Shown piece by piece: positions 48,174 through 56,737 of a stretch of 64,000 bases of DNA. Source of the DNA: Bdellovibrio sp. BCCA (GTDB taxonomy: Bacteria; Bdellovibrionota; Bdellovibrionia; Bdellovibrionales; Bdellovibrionaceae); contig NZ_JBBNAC010000001.1 in NCBI RefSeq assembly GCF_037996825.1, positions 930,001 through 994,000 on the forward strand. The letters are read 5' to 3'. The stretch's first letter is position 1. Each line of letters starts with the position of its first letter. The translations under genes were made by a program, and so were the position numbers. Below the pieces are notes generated by a model. The model was not told the origin of the DNA and did no database searches. It saw only the letters and a list, made by a program, of their open reading frames with translations.

Positions 48174-48953
48174 ATGGTTTCTATGGAATGGATAGATATT
48201 CACGCACATTTAAATATGCTCGAAGAGGGTGTAGAAGCCTCTATCGCAAACGCTAAAGCCGCGGGCGTAAAGAAAATCATCACGATTGGCACAGAGCCTG
48301 GCGATCATCCGATTGTTTTAGAAATTGCGCGCAAATATTATCCCGATGTGTATTGCACGTTGGGTGTCCATCCTCACGACGGCAAAGTCTATACGGAAGC
48401 CGCTGGAAAATTTATTGAAGAGCACGTCAGTGAACCTTGTGTTGTCGCGATTGGTGAAATCGGTCTTGATTATTATTACGATCAGTCACCGCGCCAAGAA
48501 CAGCAAGACGCTTTCCGCGCACAGCTTGAAATCGCCAAACGCACGAAGATGCCGATTGAGATTCACACGCGAGATGCCGAAGAAGACACGATTGAAATTC
48601 TTAAAGAGTTTAAAGGCGATGTGACCGGCGTCATTCACTGTTTCACCGGAACAGAGTGGCTCGCTCGTCAATCGTTGGATCTGGGTTACAATATTTCTAT
48701 CAGCGGTGTTGTGACATTTAAAAATGCCGACAGTCTTCGCAGCACAGTTAAAATGCTGCCACTGGATCGCATTCACGTAGAAACGGATTCTCCGTTTTTA
48801 GCACCCATCCCCATGCGTGGAAAAAAGAATACGCCGGCCTATGTGGTGCATACGGCGAAGTTCGTTGCAGAGCTCAAAGGAATTACTGAAGAAGAACTCT
48901 GCGAACAAACTCGTAAAAACGCTCTTAAAATGTTTCCTAAAATTCAGTGGTAA
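48174..48953 (+). CDS. tatD: TatD-family metal-dependent hydrolase
   Basis: 259 residues (or 256 if ATG 48183 is used); GAGGT lies only 4 bases before the first ATG, so the start is uncertain. TIM-barrel metal sites: WIDIHAHLNML, GEIGLDYYYDQSP, MPIEIHTRDAEED, GVIHCFTGT and HVETDSPFLAP. TatD proteins are cytoplasmic 3'-5' exonucleases or DNases. It is the fourth gene after tmk-holB, separated by the palindrome, so it may have its own promoter or rely on read-through. Confidence 0.92.
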   Translation: MVSMEWIDIHAHLNMLEEGVEASIANAKAAGVKKIITIGTEPGDHPIVLEIARKYYPDVYCTLGVHPHDGKVYTEAAGKFIEEHVSEPCVVAIGEIGLDYYYDQSPRQEQQDAFRAQLEIAKRTKMPIEIHTRDAEEDTIEILKEFKGDVTGVIHCFTGTEWLARQSLDLGYNISISGVVTFKNADSLRSTVKMLPLDRIHVETDSPFLAPIPMRGKKNTPAYVVHTAKFVAELKGITEEELCEQTRKNALKMFPKIQW

Positions 48954-48965
48954 ATCTTCATCGCG

Positions 48966-49823
48966 CTATTGATTGAAAAATCCAGCGCGAGTTTTCTTAA
49001 TCCAATCCGCAAACGGGGCGACCTTCGTTGCTTGGGCAATTCCTTTGCAACTTGTTGTGCCGTTAGGAAGTCGTGGGCCATACACAGCCGAGTTCACGCC
49101 TAAAACTTTTAACTCGCCATTTTCATGATAGAACTGCGGACCGCCGGAATCCCCTTGGCAAATGAAAACCGGCACGGTTCTGTCTGTCCAATAGCGGTCA
49201 GGCATACGATCATAGTGAGCGTCCGTTTTCATAATGCCGCGATGAAGCTGACCGACATAGTCCATCGGGCTTTGACCTCGGCCTCCTGTATAGTCTTGTG
49301 ATCTTCCGTAACCATAAACGTAGACGGTGGCATTGGAGTGGTCGGTGCGATCATCCGTATCGTAAGCAACGGGTTGATAGTTCTGTGGGAGAGAACCCGA
49401 AAAAAACGCCACGGCAATATCGTGATCGTATTCTTTTTTAGTGCTGTTGTAAGAATCCGGCACGAACCACTTGAGTCCCTTGCGCTCTGTTTTATTCCAC
49501 CAGAAAGAATATTTATCGGTGAAGACCACATTGAAACCCGCAAGCTGAGGAATGTGTGCTTTATCAAAGCAATGGCCTGCGGTGAGCACCGAGTTTGTAC
49601 CAATCAAAGTTCCTGTGCAAAACGAAACAGCCTGGCCATGACTGTTGACGATCTCTACGACAACAACACTCTTGGCGGCTTCGGTGTAGCGCTCGTGAAT
49701 TTCTTCTCCGCCAATCACGGATTCCGAATGGGATGTGTCGGGAAGGTGATGTGTGTGCACATCGGGCGAGCATGCAGAGAGTGCAAGCAGCAAACTTGGA
49801 AGTAAAACACCGTAAGATCTCAT
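48966..49823 (-). CDS. Trypsin-like serine protease lipoprotein (S1 family)
   Basis: 285 residues with AAAGGAGAA before the ATG. MRSYGVLLPSLLLALSAC is a signal peptide with an LSAC lipobox. After a short His/Ser-rich segment comes VIGGE, the zymogen-type start, then the triad H84 in VLTAGHCFDKA, D135 in YDHDIAVAFF and S226 in CQGDSGGPQF. Cysteines pair as in chymotrypsin (TGT-C near HC, and CKG/CQG). The S1 pocket residue before GDSGG cannot be told. Such secreted, lipid-anchored proteases are numerous in predatory bacteria; a prey-degrading role is inference. Confidence 0.93.
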   Translation of the reverse strand: MRSYGVLLPSLLLALSACSPDVHTHHLPDTSHSESVIGGEEIHERYTEAAKSVVVVEIVNSHGQAVSFCTGTLIGTNSVLTAGHCFDKAHIPQLAGFNVVFTDKYSFWWNKTERKGLKWFVPDSYNSTKKEYDHDIAVAFFSGSLPQNYQPVAYDTDDRTDHSNATVYVYGYGRSQDYTGGRGQSPMDYVGQLHRGIMKTDAHYDRMPDRYWTDRTVPVFICQGDSGGPQFYHENGELKVLGVNSAVYGPRLPNGTTSCKGIAQATKVAPFADWIKKTRAGFFNQ

Positions 49824-50030: not shown

Positions 50031-50049
50031 ACAGGCACGAAGTTTGGAA
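50031..50049 (+). promoter_or_regulatory. Sigma-54-like promoter of the 50084 gene
   Basis: CAGGCACGAAGTTTGGAA has GG, 10 bases, GG in the place of the -24 GG and -12 GC of the consensus TGGCACG-N4-TTGCA. It is 36 bases before the ATG. Only the last C to G change departs strongly. A very similar site lies before 54635. Confidence 0.55.
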
Positions 50050-50083: not shown

Positions 50084-51640
50084 ATGAAACGTCGTTTGAT
50101 TGCGAGTGTGCTCGCGGCTTTGAGTTTTGCGCAGAACTCTGCGTATGCGGATCTTACGGATCTCCCCAGTTTCGATGGGGTTACGGAGCAATTGCCTCCG
50201 ATCCCATCACAACCTACAGCGACCTCTCAAAATACAGGAACTGTGCAAACACAGTTCGCCGGCTCCGTCGCTCTTAGTGGCATGTCGAGAAAATCAGGCG
50301 GCACTTTATATAAAGTTGAACTTAAACAGGCTCTTTCTTTAATCCGTTTAGATGTTCGTGTTACCGTCAATCAGCTTAAAATTTTGCAAACGACATTGGT
50401 GACAGATGCAGGTCAAAGAATTGACGTGCGCCAACTGAAAAACACCAGTGTTCTTGCGACGGACTCTCTTACTTCTTTTGAAAATTTAAATCAAAGTGAT
50501 CGCATTGCTTCTATCGAACTTCTTGCAGAATCTTTCGGCGGTGAAGCCGACATTATGTTGACGGCTGTCGGTGATCGCGAAGTTCCTAAAATGACGGTGA
50601 CTGTGGATCGTCCTGCAACAACGATTCCGTCAGCAAACTCAGACGGCGATAACCAAAGTGTATCTGTAAGACCAACACCTCCTCCACCGCCAGTTCCTGC
50701 GAGACCTCGAGATACGGTGATCCGCACAGGCGATCGAGTTTATTATTCAAATTCTGTCGGCGAGGTTCGCAGTATTTTTTCAAATGGAAAGGCCGTTGTC
50801 GCGCGTGATGGATATTATGACGTAACTGTGGATCTTCGCGATTTGGCGAAATCTATTTCTTGCGTCGGTAAAATCTGTGTAAAAGATGACGTTCTTTTTG
50901 AAAATACCATGGGCTATGCGAAAGAAGTTTTCTCAAATGGAAAAGTCCGTCTGATTCGCAATGGCTACTATGATACCTTTGTTGAAGCGTCGTCTTTAGC
51001 GAAATATGTGAAATGCCTGGGATCACTCTGTGAGGGAGATGCTGTTATCTTCTCGGGAACATCAGGAAAAGTGACGGCTTTATATGATAATGGCAAGGTG
51101 CTTTTAGAGCGTATTGGTTACTATGACACGTTTGTGGATTATCGCTCTGTTGCTAAAGCCACGAGTTGTTCGTCAACAGGAACTGTTTGTGTCGGCGACA
51201 CCGTTTATTATCAAGGATCTGTAGGAAAAATCAGAACAATTTATGCGAATAATCAAGCTTTATTAGACCGTAATGGATACTATCCGACTTATGTTGATAC
51301 AAGCGCCTTGGCGAAATCAGTTCGTTGTCTTGGAGCCCTTTGTCTCGGAGCCCGTGTGTACTTCTCATCGTCGGTGGGCACTGTGGCTGCCATTTTTGCT
51401 AACGGTAAAGTCTTGCTCCAACGTGCTGGTTATTACGACACGTTTGCTGACTCAGTTTCGTTATCAAGATCCGTGCAGTGTGAACGTGTAACAGGGATTT
51501 GCGCCGGAGATACGGTAATTTTCTCTAATACGATGGGCCTTGTTGCGGAAATTTTTGAAAATGGCCAAGCGTTGTTCGTTAGAAGCGGTTATTACGACAC
51601 GTTTGTTGACGCTAAACTACTTGCAAAAAAGATTCGCTAG
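50084..51640 (+). CDS. Secreted shared-domain protein with six 50-residue repeats
   Basis: 518 residues with AAGGAG before the ATG; signal peptide MKRRLIASVLAALSFAQNSAYA. About 58-170 is a beta-sandwich-like domain (AGSVALSGMSRKSGGTLYK, GQRIDVRQLKNTSVL, ENLNQSDRIASIELLAES) shared with the next three genes. A polyproline linker (PTPPPPPVPARP) follows near 198-208. From about 215 to the end are six repeats of about 50 residues, each GDxVxxSNxxGxVxxIFxNGKxxxxRxGYYDTFVD, with cysteine pairs at the joints, probably SH3-like barrels. Starts the four-gene set; next gene begins 10 bases on. Confidence 0.75.
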   Translation: MKRRLIASVLAALSFAQNSAYADLTDLPSFDGVTEQLPPIPSQPTATSQNTGTVQTQFAGSVALSGMSRKSGGTLYKVELKQALSLIRLDVRVTVNQLKILQTTLVTDAGQRIDVRQLKNTSVLATDSLTSFENLNQSDRIASIELLAESFGGEADIMLTAVGDREVPKMTVTVDRPATTIPSANSDGDNQSVSVRPTPPPPPVPARPRDTVIRTGDRVYYSNSVGEVRSIFSNGKAVVARDGYYDVTVDLRDLAKSISCVGKICVKDDVLFENTMGYAKEVFSNGKVRLIRNGYYDTFVEASSLAKYVKCLGSLCEGDAVIFSGTSGKVTALYDNGKVLLERIGYYDTFVDYRSVAKATSCSSTGTVCVGDTVYYQGSVGKIRTIYANNQALLDRNGYYPTYVDTSALAKSVRCLGALCLGARVYFSSSVGTVAAIFANGKVLLQRAGYYDTFADSVSLSRSVQCERVTGICAGDTVIFSNTMGLVAEIFENGQALFVRSGYYDTFVDAKLLAKKIR

Positions 51641-51650
51641 GAGATACCAG

Positions 51651-52946
51651 ATGAAACGCTCAGCTATTTCAACATTCTTAGCGGCTTTAACTTTGATGCA
51701 AACAGCGCACGCGCAAGTTCTTTCGGACCTTCCGGATTTTGACGGTGCCAATCAAGAACTTCCGGCGATTCCCGCAACACCTGTGGTGACAGAGCCGGTT
51801 CAGTCTCAGTATGCAGGTTCCGTGGCGATCTCTGAGATCTCTCGCAAATCCGGTGGCACGCTTTACAAAATCGATTTGCAACAGCCTCTTTCGTTGTTGC
51901 GTTTGGATCTGCGTGTGACAAACAGTCAGCTTAAGATTCATCAAGCCACTTTAGTGACAGAGAATGGTCAAAGAATTGACGTGCGTGAGTACCGCAATAC
52001 AGCGGTATTACCAACAGGCTCCGTCACGGCGTCAGAAAATTTGAACTTAAGTGATCGCGTAATTTCTATCGAAATTTTGGCAGAGTCTTATTCCGCAGAA
52101 GCTGATGTGATGTTAACGGCGATTGCTGACCGTGGTGTTCCTAAGCTCGCTTTAAGAATTGAAAGATCTCCGGTTGTTCCTCAGCGTCCTGATGTTCCGA
52201 ACAGACCTCAAACTCCAGACAGACCACCGGTTTATGTGGATACAAGAATCTCTGCGGGTGATGTGGTTCTTTCTGGCCCACTGAGAGAAAACAAATACTA
52301 CACGGGCAGAGTGGTGGAAGTGTACCGCAACAACCAAGCTCTGGTGCGCGATGACGACGACGGGAAAACATATGTTCGCGATTTAACTCTTTTGGGAAAA
52401 CGCATCACCTGTGAGTCTTCAAAAAATATTTGTGAAAGAGCGAGCGTTCTTTCAGGACCTTTCACGGACAATAAATACTACTATGGTTCCGTGGTTGACG
52501 TTTATTCAAATGGAAAAATCCGTGTTCGCGATAACGATGACGGCAAAGTTTATGTTCGCATTGCGAAAGACATTCATGTGTCTGTGCGCTGCGATTCTTC
52601 TGGAAACTGTGTGGGCGACAAAGTTTTGTCGGGTCCATTTACAAATAATAAATACTATTCAGGAAGAATTGAAGGCGTTTACTCTAACGGACTTTTGAAC
52701 GTTCGTGATGATGATGATGGAAAATCTTATCTTCGTCTTGCCAATGTTGTGATGAAATCTGTTCGTTGCGAAGGCAACAAAGGAATCTGCGTCGGTGACC
52801 GTGTTGTATCGGGTCCTTACCGAAACGGCGCTTACTACGCGGGTCGCGTGTTGGGAGTGTACTCTTCCGGAATCATTCTTGTTCAAGATGATGACGACGG
52901 AAAAGTATATCCTCGCAAAGCTCAGGAAATATCTAAAACTAGATAA
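51651..52946 (+). CDS. Secreted shared-domain protein with four DDDDGK repeats
   Basis: 431 residues from ATG 51651, with TAGGAG 8 bases upstream; the reading frame extends earlier but only through the previous gene's end. Signal peptide MKRSAISTFLAALTLMQTAHA; the shared domain (about 47-160) is the nearest relative of the preceding one (AGSVAISEISRKSGGTLYKI). From about 200 come four repeats of about 55 residues, SGPxxxNKYYxGRVxxVYSNGxxxVRDDDDGKxYxR, each with a CxGD/ICxGD joint. DDDDGK looks like a cation-binding turn, but this is not shown. Tandem gene, likely same transcript. Confidence 0.75.
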   Translation: MKRSAISTFLAALTLMQTAHAQVLSDLPDFDGANQELPAIPATPVVTEPVQSQYAGSVAISEISRKSGGTLYKIDLQQPLSLLRLDLRVTNSQLKIHQATLVTENGQRIDVREYRNTAVLPTGSVTASENLNLSDRVISIEILAESYSAEADVMLTAIADRGVPKLALRIERSPVVPQRPDVPNRPQTPDRPPVYVDTRISAGDVVLSGPLRENKYYTGRVVEVYRNNQALVRDDDDGKTYVRDLTLLGKRITCESSKNICERASVLSGPFTDNKYYYGSVVDVYSNGKIRVRDNDDGKVYVRIAKDIHVSVRCDSSGNCVGDKVLSGPFTNNKYYSGRIEGVYSNGLLNVRDDDDGKSYLRLANVVMKSVRCEGNKGICVGDRVVSGPYRNGAYYAGRVLGVYSSGIILVQDDDDGKVYPRKAQEISKTR

Positions 52947-52976
52947 AATTTTTTAATAAAACACTCGGAGATGAAT

Positions 52977-54527
52977 ATGAAAAAACAATTGGTCTTGGGA
53001 GCTCTTGTCGCAACGACAATTTTGCAAGCGTCCATTCCCGCGCATGCAGACAAAGAAACGATCGGCAATGTTATCGGTGGTGTGATCGGTGGAGTCATCG
53101 GTTCACAAATCGGTAAAGGTAATGGAAACACGGCTGCGATCATCATCGGTACGATCGCAGGAACAATGATCGGCGGCCAAGTGGGCCGTGATATGGACGA
53201 GGCAGATCGTCGTGCATTGGCAGAAGCGCAACAAAGAGCTTTGCGTGATCAATTAGGACGTCGTAATGATTGGGATGGCCGTTCTTACGGTTCAAGAACA
53301 GGTGCGCGCGGAAGTTTTACATCCGTGCGTGAGGGTTATAATTACCGCACCAATGAATACTGCCGTGAGTACACAAGCGTGATTTACGTGAACAACCGCA
53401 CAGAGGAAACTCGCGGTGTGGCGTGCTCTCGTGCTGATGGTTCTTGGTATGAAGTGCAAACGACAGAAGTTCGTTTTAACAATGGCAACGCGGGTAACGG
53501 TGGTGGTTACGTGACTCCAGCACCTCGTCCTCAACAACCTAATCTTCCTCCTCCGCCAGCTCCTGTGCAGTCTTTGCGTGAAGGATCTGTGGCGATCAAC
53601 ACGGTCACTCGTCAATCAGGCGGGCAGTGGTATCGCGTTCTTGTGACAGAGCCGTTGACTTTGGATCGCGTGGAAGTAGCGGCGACGGCGGTACGCGTGA
53701 AAATTCACGAAGGCAGTGTTGTCACTCAACGTGGTCAACGTATTGCGATTCGTGAATTTCAAAACACTCCTGTTTTTGATGCAGGTTCAAGAGCCGTTTC
53801 TGAAAACTTGAATGTGCGTGAAAGAATTGTGGCGATTGATCTTCGCATGGAATCTTACGGTGGTTATGCCGCTGTTGAAGTGAAAGCTTTGTCGAACGAA
53901 GGTCGTCCTCGTTTGGCTCTTGAAAACAACGAGCCGGTAAGACCGCAACCTCCTGTTTATGACAACAGAAGTTTGAAAGGTTACTGCTCTGACGACGATC
54001 ATCAGCAGTTCTATGCGGCGAAAAATTTCGCCTATGCAAGTGATGGTTTGAATTTGACGGATTCAGGTGCGACTCAATGGGCGCTTCAATACAACCAATC
54101 TCATCGTTGCAATACAGTTGGAGAATATAAAGCCCGTTACCAAGCTATTTACAATGTGGCTTACGCAAGCGACGGTTTGAATCTGACTTCCGCGGGTGCC
54201 AGAGATTACGCGCTTCAATACGTTGAAAACATGACGGCAAATGAAGCTCGTGAAATGGCTTCTGTGTTGAGAGCCGCTCAACGTTTTGCTTATGCCAGCG
54301 ATGGTTTGAACATGACTTCTGCGGGAGCAACTAGCTTTGCGCGTAGCTGGGTTGAAAGCCGTTGCGAAGGTGTTGATCACATCAACATGCTCGCGAACCG
54401 TTTTAGAAGCGAATACAACTTCGCGTATTCTTCAAACGGACTGAACATGACTTCGGCAGGGGCTGTAAATTATGCAGCTAACAAGATTGCTCCACTGACA
54501 CGTTGTGGTCACTTGTTGCGTAGATAA
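52977..54527 (+). CDS. Secreted glycine-zipper protein with YASDGLN repeats
   Basis: 516 residues from ATG 52977, where CGGAG gives proper spacing (ATG 52971 touches it). Signal peptide MKKQLVLGALVATTILQASIPAHA. About 28-65 is a glycine zipper (IGGVIGGVIGSQIGKGNG, GTIAGTMIGGQVG), then REGYNYRTNEYCREY and ETRGVACSRADGSWYEV as in 17-kDa surface antigens. About 205-320 is the shared domain (REGSVAINTVTRQSGGQWYRV). About 340-510 holds four repeats around FAYASDGLNLTSAGA, with about 44 residues period. The zipper should insert in the outer membrane. A terminator follows. Confidence 0.78.
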   Translation: MKKQLVLGALVATTILQASIPAHADKETIGNVIGGVIGGVIGSQIGKGNGNTAAIIIGTIAGTMIGGQVGRDMDEADRRALAEAQQRALRDQLGRRNDWDGRSYGSRTGARGSFTSVREGYNYRTNEYCREYTSVIYVNNRTEETRGVACSRADGSWYEVQTTEVRFNNGNAGNGGGYVTPAPRPQQPNLPPPPAPVQSLREGSVAINTVTRQSGGQWYRVLVTEPLTLDRVEVAATAVRVKIHEGSVVTQRGQRIAIREFQNTPVFDAGSRAVSENLNVRERIVAIDLRMESYGGYAAVEVKALSNEGRPRLALENNEPVRPQPPVYDNRSLKGYCSDDDHQQFYAAKNFAYASDGLNLTDSGATQWALQYNQSHRCNTVGEYKARYQAIYNVAYASDGLNLTSAGARDYALQYVENMTANEAREMASVLRAAQRFAYASDGLNMTSAGATSFARSWVESRCEGVDHINMLANRFRSEYNFAYSSNGLNMTSAGAVNYAANKIAPLTRCGHLLRR

Positions 54528-54535
54528 GTAGCTCT

Positions 54536-54560
54536 AGAAGGGGATTTCGGTCCCCTTTTG
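54536..54560 (+). terminator. Rho-independent terminator
   Basis: AAGGGGA-TTTCGG-TCCCCTT followed by TTTTG: seven-base stem after the YASDGLN gene. Confidence 0.75.
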
Positions 54561-54571
54561 ACACTAAAAAG

Positions 54572-54591
54572 CCTGGCACAGAACTTGGATT
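54572..54591 (+). promoter_or_regulatory. Sigma-54-like promoter of the 54635 gene
   Basis: TGGCACAGAACTTGGA: -24 motif TGGCAC is perfect, and TTGG stands where TTGC is expected, with 10 bases between the GG pairs. Compared with 50034-50048 the two sites agree at GGCAC, GAA/AC-TTGGA and the same TAAGG/C TCA(T/C)CGGA follows. Confidence 0.6.
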
Positions 54592-54634
54592 AAGGGTCAT
54601 CGGATTTACAAAGACTTTAGATTAAGGAGTCTCC

Positions 54635-55603
54635 ATGAAAAAGAACCTCGTTTTAGGATCAGTAATTGTCGCTTCACTTGTACAATATACAAGCCCTGCA
54701 TTTGCGAACAAAGAAACAATCGGCAACATCATTGGTGGTGTTATCGGCGGTGTGATCGGATCAAACATCGGTAAAGGAAATGGAAACACAGCTGCGATCA
54801 TCATCGGTACAATCGCAGGAACTATGATCGGCGGTAAAGTCGGAGCCGACATGGACGAAGCAGACCGTCGCGCTTTCCAGGAAGCGCAAGACCGCGCTCT
54901 TCGCAATCGTTTGGGAGACCGTTGTGACTGGGATGGCCGTAACTACGGTTCTCGCACAGGTTCTCGCGGAAGCTTCACAACAACTCGTGAAGGTTACAAC
55001 AACCGCACAGGTGAATACTGCCGTGAATACTCCAGCGTGATTTACACTCGCAGAAGCACAGAAGAGACTCGCGGTATCGCGTGCTCTCGTCGTGATGGCT
55101 CTTGGTATGAAGTTCGTGAAACGGAAGTTCGTTTCAATGGCGGTGGCTACGGTGGCGGTCGTCAAGAACCTTCAAGACCTCCTCGTTACCCAGATGTTCC
55201 ACAACGTCCAAATCTTCCACCTCCTCCTCCAGCTCAATCTCGTTATGAAGGAACTGCGAATATCAGCCAAATCACTCGTCGTACGGGTGGTGAGTGGATC
55301 CGTGTTAACGTGAACAACGCGGTGTCTTTGGAGCGTATCGAACTTCGCGCCTTGTCTGCCGGTGTTCGCGTTCATGAGGCGATCGTGCACACAGAGTCGG
55401 GCAGCCAGATCCGCGTTCGTGAGTTGAGCCCAACTCCAACGTTCTATGCAGGTGACACAGCGGTTTCTGAAAACCTCAACTTGGGTCGTGATCGTGTTGT
55501 GGCGATTGATATCCGCGCTGAGTCTATGGGTGGATACGCTGACGTGCTTGTGAAAGCGGTTTCTAATAGCGGTTACCCTTCTTTGGGTGTTTCTCGCTAC
55601 TAA
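54635..55603 (+). CDS. Secreted glycine-zipper shared-domain protein
   Basis: 322 residues with AAGGAG 6 bases before the ATG. It is a shorter twin of the preceding protein: signal peptide MKKNLVLGSVIVASLVQYTSPAFA, glycine zipper (IGGVIGGVIGSNIGKGNG), REGYNNRTGEYCREYSSVIY surface-antigen segment, a proline linker (RPNLPPPPPAQS) and the shared domain (about 208-318: YEGTANISQITRRTGGEWIRV). It ends there, without the YASDGLN repeats. The nucleotide and residue match to the preceding gene over the first 180 residues is high, which points to a duplication. Own promoter and terminator. Confidence 0.8.
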   Translation: MKKNLVLGSVIVASLVQYTSPAFANKETIGNIIGGVIGGVIGSNIGKGNGNTAAIIIGTIAGTMIGGKVGADMDEADRRAFQEAQDRALRNRLGDRCDWDGRNYGSRTGSRGSFTTTREGYNNRTGEYCREYSSVIYTRRSTEETRGIACSRRDGSWYEVRETEVRFNGGGYGGGRQEPSRPPRYPDVPQRPNLPPPPPAQSRYEGTANISQITRRTGGEWIRVNVNNAVSLERIELRALSAGVRVHEAIVHTESGSQIRVRELSPTPTFYAGDTAVSENLNLGRDRVVAIDIRAESMGGYADVLVKAVSNSGYPSLGVSRY

Positions 55604-55729: not shown

Positions 55730-56737
55730 ATGTCTAAATTGCGCGTTGGTATCAACGGTTTTGGTCGTATTGGTCGTGTTCTTTTCCGTGCGGGTTTTGA
55801 AAAACTCGATATCGTCGGAATCAATTCTTTGGATAGCATCGAAGGTGATGCACACTTGCTCAAGTACGACTCGGCTCACGGCGTGTTCAACGCTGATGTT
55901 TCTACTGAAGGTCACAATCTGATTGTTAACGGCAAAAAAATTGCGGTTTCTAAAACTCGCAATCCTGCTGAAGTTCCTTGGAAGGACTTGGGCGTGGATC
56001 TTGTTCTTGAGTGCACAGGCGCATTCAAAGACAAAGCGGAGTTCATGCAACACATCAACGCTGGCGCAAAACGTGTTTTGGTTTCTGGCCCTGCTGAAAA
56101 AGGTGCTGACATCACAATGGTGTACGGTATCAACCACGAATCATACGATCCAGCAAAGCACCAAGTTGTTTCCAATGCGTCTTGCACAACGAACTGCTTG
56201 GCTCCTCTAGCAAAAGTATTGAACGAGACATTCGGTGTTGAGAGCGGAACAATGATGACTGTTCACTCTTACACGAACGATCAAAAAATCTTGGATGCTC
56301 CTCACAAAGATTTGCGCCGCGCACGTGCAGCGGCTGTGAGCATGATCCCAACAACAACAGGTGCCGCGAAAAACGTGGGTTTGGTGTTGCCTGAGTTGAA
56401 AGGCAAGATCGACGGTATCTCGGTTCGCGTTCCAACTCCAAACGTGTCTTTGGTGGATTTCACTTTCCAAGCAAAAAAAGACGTGACGAAGGAAGCTGTG
56501 AACGAAGCTTTGATCGCGGCTTCTCAAGGCGCTTTGAAAGGTATTTTGGCTGTAGAGAAAAATGAACTAGTGAGTGTGGACTTCAACGGCAGCCCTTACT
56601 CTTCAATCGTGGATTTGGCTTCAACAATGGTTGTGGGTCCTCGCATGGTGAAAGTTCTTTCTTGGTACGACAATGAGACTGGTTTCTCTAACCGCATGGT
56701 TGACGTCGCACTTCACATGGCGAAGAAGGGTCTTTAA
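55730..56737 (+). CDS. gap: Glyceraldehyde-3-phosphate dehydrogenase
   Basis: 335 residues, family size. NAD-binding VGINGFGRIGRVLFRA at the start, catalytic C152 in NASCTTNCLAPLAK and the S-loop-to-C-terminus DLASTMVVGPRMVKVLSWYDNE. Glycolytic oxidation of glyceraldehyde-3-phosphate in the cytoplasm. AAGGAG is 10 bases before the ATG. gap, pgk and tpiA follow in one line, with pgk 3 bases later. Confidence 0.97.
   Translation: MSKLRVGINGFGRIGRVLFRAGFEKLDIVGINSLDSIEGDAHLLKYDSAHGVFNADVSTEGHNLIVNGKKIAVSKTRNPAEVPWKDLGVDLVLECTGAFKDKAEFMQHINAGAKRVLVSGPAEKGADITMVYGINHESYDPAKHQVVSNASCTTNCLAPLAKVLNETFGVESGTMMTVHSYTNDQKILDAPHKDLRRARAAAVSMIPTTTGAAKNVGLVLPELKGKIDGISVRVPTPNVSLVDFTFQAKKDVTKEAVNEALIAASQGALKGILAVEKNELVSVDFNGSPYSSIVDLASTMVVGPRMVKVLSWYDNETGFSNRMVDVALHMAKKGL

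Follow-up and report, generated by a model that had tools for sequence, protein, structure and literature searches.

A mosaic set of predicted exported proteins built on the PF18820 β-sandwich lies upstream of gap in Bdellovibrio

We analysed a 64,000-nucleotide stretch of the genome of Bdellovibrio sp. BCCA (contig NZ_JBBNAC010000001.1, positions 930,001 to 994,000; hereafter the window, in whose numbering coordinates are given unless prefixed), following up an original prediction, made by a model from the sequence, of four tandem secreted paralogues at 50084-55603. All four open reading frames (ORFs) are present there on the + strand. Gene 1 (P0001, 518 amino acids, 50084-51640) encodes a signal peptide, a core domain of the Pfam family PF18820 and six SH3/KOW-like units whose hairpin reads GYYDTF, and gene 2 (P0002, 431 amino acids, 51651-52946) a signal peptide, the same core and four SH3-like units in which the hairpin is DDDDGK. 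Gene 3 (P0003, 518 amino acids, 52971-54527) combines a signal peptide, a glycine zipper, a 17-kDa-antigen-like region, the core and four YASDGLN helical repeats, while gene 4 (P0004, 322 amino acids, 54635-55603) has a signal peptide, a glycine zipper, a 17-kDa-like region and a C-terminal core. The start of gene 2 is placed at the ATG at 51651 and not at the mechanically called TTG at 51540, because its leader then fits those of the paralogues. Export is predicted for all four proteins, as the original prediction had it: judged by hydropathy and cleavage site rather than by SignalP, each begins with an n-region and a hydrophobic stretch followed by an AxA-type site (AYA/D, AHA/Q, AHA/D and AFA/N for genes 1-4).

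All four proteins match PF18820, named "Bdellovibrio Beta-sandwich" (BD_b_sandwich), with 136.7, 150.4, 110.4 and 91.7 bits for genes 1-4, exceeding the curated cut-off of 26.1 bits by 65-124 bits. The core covers residues 50-174 of gene 1 (50231-50605, +; E 5.9e-40), 49-173 of gene 2 (51795-52169, +; E 3.6e-44), 200-321 of gene 3 (53568-53933, +; E 8.1e-32) and 200-318 of gene 4 (55232-55588, +; E 5.1e-26). The shared domain is thus real and aligns nearly without gaps, at a length of about 120-125 rather than the roughly 110 residues first proposed, and the D/E-rich ending that had been listed among its hallmarks is not distinctive. Nor is it an undescribed domain, since the family already has a name; we found no ligand recorded for it. 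The cluster is real and more ordered than first seen, and it is built on a named family. No NCBIfam family scored above its cut-off for the cluster proteins, a sequence search of the PDB with gene 1 gave no convincing match, and a search of viral contigs gave no relative.

AlphaFold2 models of genes 1 and 3 both show the core as an all-β domain, predicted to be a β-sandwich, with a predicted local distance difference test (pLDDT) score mostly above 90. In a fold search with the predicted core, the best-ranked structures include carbohydrate-binding jelly rolls with moderate Z scores of 7-9, among them a chitosan-binding module (Z 8.6 over 102 residues at 2.7 Å), the CBM32 of GH89 (Z 8.1), AlgX (Z 8.4-8.5) and a putative fucosidase (Z 9.1). 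A match to an Ena-type spore-fibre structure, considered as a hint of polymerisation, was set aside at a root-mean-square deviation of about 7 Å or more, and weak tail-protein matches from a viral structure library superposed poorly and were not used.

The six units of gene 1 occupy residues 213-518 (50720-51637, +) with cysteine pairs at the unit borders; they are predicted with pLDDT above 90, and their fold matches KOW domains of NusG and Spt5 (NusG KOW: Z 8.3 over 47 residues, 1.4 Å). The four DDDDGK-type units of gene 2 (52248-52943, +) had been described as a module of another kind. The two arrays are, however, homologous by profile-profile comparison with hhalign (probability 96%, E 3.8e-9), and gene 2, searched with a profile built on the units of gene 1, scores 19.7 bits with four domains, against 10.8 for the best of 2000 shuffles; the gene 1 and gene 2 repeats are therefore variants of one module. 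The units measure about 51 residues in gene 1 and about 60 in gene 2, and according to the models they form a single disulfide-framed SH3/KOW-like module whose hairpin loop reads GYYDTF in the one and DDDDGK in the other. With the SH3-like and DDDDGK repeats forming a single family, the number of partner types drops from four to three; the counts originally given (six units in gene 1, four in gene 2 and four of the YASDGLN type in gene 3) are correct. Relatives carry further hairpin variants (GYSEPSF, GYSGTH, DNGGIGGNW) at what by eye appears to be the same position, and the cysteine frame is retained across the arrays. The cysteine pairs lead us to expect these arrays in an oxidising compartment. 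Calcium binding by the DDDDGK units was also considered and is not part of our reading. No array unit exceeded a Pfam cut-off, the scores being 19 bits for SH3_15 (cut-off 24) and 25.6 bits for DUF4537 (cut-off 27).

Both predicted glycine zippers are borne out, at residues 32-72 of gene 3 (53064-53186, +) and 30-70 of gene 4 (54722-54844, +), with 29.7 and 28.6 bits against the Rick_17kDa_Anti family (PF05433; cut-off 24.2). The 17-kDa antigen domain PF16998 falls just below its cut-off of 26.6 in genes 3 and 4 (25.3 and 26.1 bits), and the profile of the zipper family finds SlyB (7ojf) in the PDB with E 0.0011; a second PDB match with E 0.66 was disregarded. Gene 4 had been thought to carry a zipper alone, but it also has a 17-kDa-antigen-like region, and ahead of the core it shares 75% identity with gene 3, compared with 50% within the core. 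The C-terminal region of gene 3 (53964-54524, +) holds the four YASDGLN-type helical repeats, which also occur in another genus in proteins that have no core. Homology between these and the SYGSxxYN helical repeats was not detectable.

The source genome (4,013,063 bases in two contigs) encodes seven PF18820 genes. The three beyond the cluster, whose products are likewise predicted to be exported and match PF18820 with 60-146 bits, comprise P0005 and P0006 with a helical C-terminal domain and P0007 with a Pro/Arg/Asp-rich N-terminal part. The helical domain of P0005 and P0006 gave only a weak match (24%) to the SYGSxxYN repeats. In none of the seven proteins do the first 35 residues contain a lipobox ([LVI][ASTVI][GAS]C). 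At C1:600000-601200 of the genome (L011:3-1289), P0006 follows an ORF that by eye resembles an L,D-transpeptidase-type wall enzyme.

Comparison with relatives confirms that modules are shuffled on one core: the core is found with other modules, and the modules are found without it. The first genes of two relatives (G061 and G195) have cores that are 80% identical but arrays that are only 36% identical, because the array consists of DDDDGK units in G061 and of GYYD units in G195; the G061 array is 57% identical to that of gene 2 of the window and the G195 array 48% identical to that of gene 1. The same pattern is seen between neighbours in a single genome, genes 1 and 2 of G092 sharing 70% of the core and 32% of the arrays; the cores of neighbouring genes are alike in the window as well (66%). 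Gene 3 of the window and a gene of G200 share 84% of the N-terminal part and 60% of the core, and carry repeats unrelated by sequence. In the sister genomes G199 and G200, a coreless protein made up of a leader and six SH3-like units of the GYYD type is encoded next to the core gene upstream of gap (L095:1614-2780, L096:6279-7511); the one in G199 is 51% identical to gene 1 of the window in the leader and 48% in the array. In another genus of the family (g4; L115, L117, L119), zipper and 17-kDa-like region run directly into YASDGLN-type repeats, which suggests that gene 3 may have arisen by insertion of a core into such a coreless protein.

Further modules appear beyond these. Two genomes of another family in the phylum have the core followed by other Cys-rich repeats (L062:3580-4836, L063:3602-4723). 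The repeats of the L062 protein are six in number and near-identical. A core gene of G194 (L087:2221-3252) ends in yet another repeat with WNGTGY-type motifs. Most deep forks of a tree of the core domain are unresolved, so the case for exchange is made from pairwise identities and architectures and not from the tree.

PF18820 occurs in 19 of 192 genomes and 4 of 119 genera in a sample of the phylum, and in 25 of 66 genomes and 3 of 20 genera in a sample of the family; beyond the phylum, coverage consisted of 14 control genomes, none of which has it. Within these samples the domain is restricted to Bdellovibrio and its relatives. The family sample includes 24 genomes of the genus, the source genome among them. 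The core family is found in 23 of these, and in all 23 a core gene stands directly upstream of gap, with gene 4 being the member present there in nearly all genomes. The four genes are not a fixed set: content and order vary, with four core genes upstream of gap in five genomes, three in five, two in four and one in nine, counts from which draft contigs may hide some copies. The frames that were read at this place are open.

In the window, the cluster is followed by gap (GAPDH; 55730-56737, +) and then pgk and tpi, and it is preceded by a divergent gene for an exported trypsin-like protease (48966-49823, -), beyond which lies tatD (48174-48953, +). In most genomes of the genus, the protease gene neighbours the cluster. 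In four of the five outgroup genomes examined (G209, G130, G005 and G094) tatD and gap adjoin, and in the fifth (G171) they lie about 470 bases apart. G148, from a genus that has core genes, carries them elsewhere and has no tatD beside gap. The simplest reading of these gene orders is that the cluster was inserted at the base of the genus.

Both ends of the cluster are marked by the same promoter-like element, GGCAC[AG]N3[CT]TTGGA (GGCACR-N3-YTTGGA), and throughout the genus this element is conserved ahead of the transcription units that carry core-domain genes. The copy upstream of gene 1, GGCACGAAGTTTGGA (50034-50048, +), ends 35 bp before the ATG, and the copy upstream of gene 4, GGCACAGAACTTGGA (54575-54589, +), ends 45 bp before it. 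The pattern GGCAC-N5-TTGGA has 12 matches genome-wide, three of which head core genes (binomial 3e-11 for 60-bp windows), and in the relative G073 four of nine matches of a narrower pattern do so (2e-15), both values being descriptive as the patterns were derived from the same genes. A further site of the element in the source genome lies at C1:2577724-2577738, and P0005 and P0006 are not preceded by it. In seven relatives, the genes that follow other matches include those for a subtilase-like lipoprotein and for small Cys-rich lipoproteins, and several matches stand before unrelated frames.

The element has the layout of a sigma-54 promoter, with GG at -24 and 10 bp of spacing to the -12 element; in 23 compiled sites the GG is invariant and the spacing constant, but the -12 position reads GG instead of the sigma-54 GC in all 23. 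One RpoN is encoded in the source genome, and canonical sigma-54 sites number two there and three in G073. A scan for sigma-70 promoters returned fewer sites than in shuffled sequence. Between genes 3 and 4 lies a stem-loop with a T-run (54535-54560, +; fold energy -14.7 kcal/mol), a likely intrinsic terminator, and by eye several relatives have a similar stem-loop ahead of the last gene; the one in the window was not listed by a simple scan. Rfam gave no match within the window.

We read the cluster as an exported set of mosaic adaptors at the envelope interface between predator and prey, a function that we infer and to which we give about even weight. The proposal of a module-shuffling set of surface or periplasmic proteins survives in its main part, one core with exchanged modules on envelope proteins whose export is predicted, though that core was not new. 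The set would be specific to Bdellovibrio-type predators. Its core would most likely bind a component of the envelope, with a glycan (peptidoglycan or lipopolysaccharide, for instance) as the probable ligand, and the arrays of disulfide-framed SH3/KOW-like units, presenting a similar hairpin in each unit, could provide multivalent binding of a repetitive ligand. The glycine-zipper segment may insert in the outer membrane and anchor or cluster the protein, with the helical repeats as another exchangeable part joined to the core. Recombination that swaps whole arrays between cores would leave the core in place for anchoring or targeting and yet allow a change of ligand.

Expression of the set probably falls early in predation, and its proteins may act at the surface of the predator or inside the bdelloplast. 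In published proteomics (PMC12546842 and PMC11003981), the B. bacteriovorus HD100 β-sandwich proteins Bd1044 and Bd1045, named in the former and placed on the prey-entry list of the latter, come from a list of proteins that were found in emptied prey and are induced early. Adjacent core genes occur in G073 only in the gap cluster; if G073 is HD100 and the tags are consecutive, Bd1044 and Bd1045 are two of the four cluster genes. To our knowledge, neither the name of PF18820 nor PMC12546842, as far as its text was covered, describes the partner modules, their exchange, the place upstream of gap or the shared promoter-like element.

Several observations weigh against an adaptor role in predation. 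Other jelly rolls, including subtilisin P-domains, viral coats and C2 and GOLD domains, score about as well against the core as the carbohydrate-binding ones, and the zipper region of gene 3 is modelled at low confidence (pLDDT below 50). One genome of the genus, G201, has no PF18820 member at all and many others hold a single core gene upstream of gap, which argues that a large set is not needed for predatory life. The family is also not one expression class, because Bd2715, another PF18820 member, is listed in PMC12546842 as raised during growth in prey and not at entry.

The main rival, less probable than the adaptor reading but to be taken seriously, is that these are house-keeping outer-membrane proteins resembling SlyB and other glycine-zipper proteins. 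In this reading the zipper members would stabilise the outer membrane or cluster its proteins, the core and repeats would work within the periplasm of the predator itself (on its peptidoglycan, for example), and none of the parts would serve prey contact directly. The most constant member upstream of gap is indeed a zipper protein, the profile matches are to SlyB and PF05433, every member has a predicted signal peptide and no lipobox, and other exported proteins have the promoter-like element ahead of their genes too. SlyB is, however, a lipoprotein, so that the missing lipobox cysteine also tells against the likeness, and the arrays are swapped far faster than house-keeping parts would be; relatives moreover stand on a prey-entry protein list (PMC12546842).

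We consider it unlikely that the array proteins instead end up free in the periplasm of the prey, where they would coat its wall or reseal it and stabilise the bdelloplast, with only the zipper members staying on the predator. The array proteins have no membrane anchor, and two relatives are named among proteins recovered from emptied prey (PMC12546842, PMC11003981), but the core is common to anchored and unanchored members, which suggests that all of them act at the same site. A last alternative is tandem duplication and gene conversion of little functional consequence, the size of the set drifting and the variety of arrays reflecting repeat instability. It would suit a copy number that ranges from one to four and the likeness of neighbouring cores, yet it is improbable given open frames at the cluster place, a retained cysteine frame in the arrays, and conservation of both place and promoter-like element.

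By means of which molecules predatory bacteria handle many different prey envelopes is largely an open question, which a genus-wide set at a single locus with exchangeable arrays makes testable. For a Pfam family without a function, the analysis also provides a set of proteins whose parts are defined, together with a candidate regulon.

The predicted core aligns with CBM32 / F5-8 type C modules over about 100 residues (Z 7-9), at a sequence identity of just 5-18%. The tandem SH3-like units recall the KOW repeats of NusG and Spt5 and Tudor repeats, a likeness that is predicted here; in contrast to these, the cluster arrays are predicted to be exported, have cysteine pairs between units and match no Pfam family above its cut-off. 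Genes 3 and 4 share the glycine zipper, with a profile match to SlyB, with SlyB and the 17-kDa antigen proteins, but they lack the lipobox cysteine of the lipoprotein SlyB and have an added PF18820 core. A parallel in organisation is found in the same genus, in the mosaic adhesive trimer (MAT) fibre proteins of B. bacteriovorus, which likewise combine a conserved part with C-terminal parts that are exchanged; one of them binds glycans on the prey surface, and during invasion some were localised to the vesicle or the bdelloplast (PMC10769870). It is tempting, if rather speculative, to see in the cluster a second mosaic recognition system beside the MAT fibres. In it, a small glycan-binding core would swap whole SH3-like arrays and so keep up with prey envelopes as they change; nearly all units of an array would display the same hairpin motif, and a variant sigma-54-type promoter (GG at -12), in common with exported proteases and lipoproteins, would drive expression. 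The cluster proteins and the MAT fibres differ in build: MAT proteins form trimeric fibres of about 1000 residues with a β-helix, whereas the cluster proteins have 322-518 residues and a different core, and the models of genes 1 and 3 show a β-sandwich, SH3-like units and helices but no β-helix.

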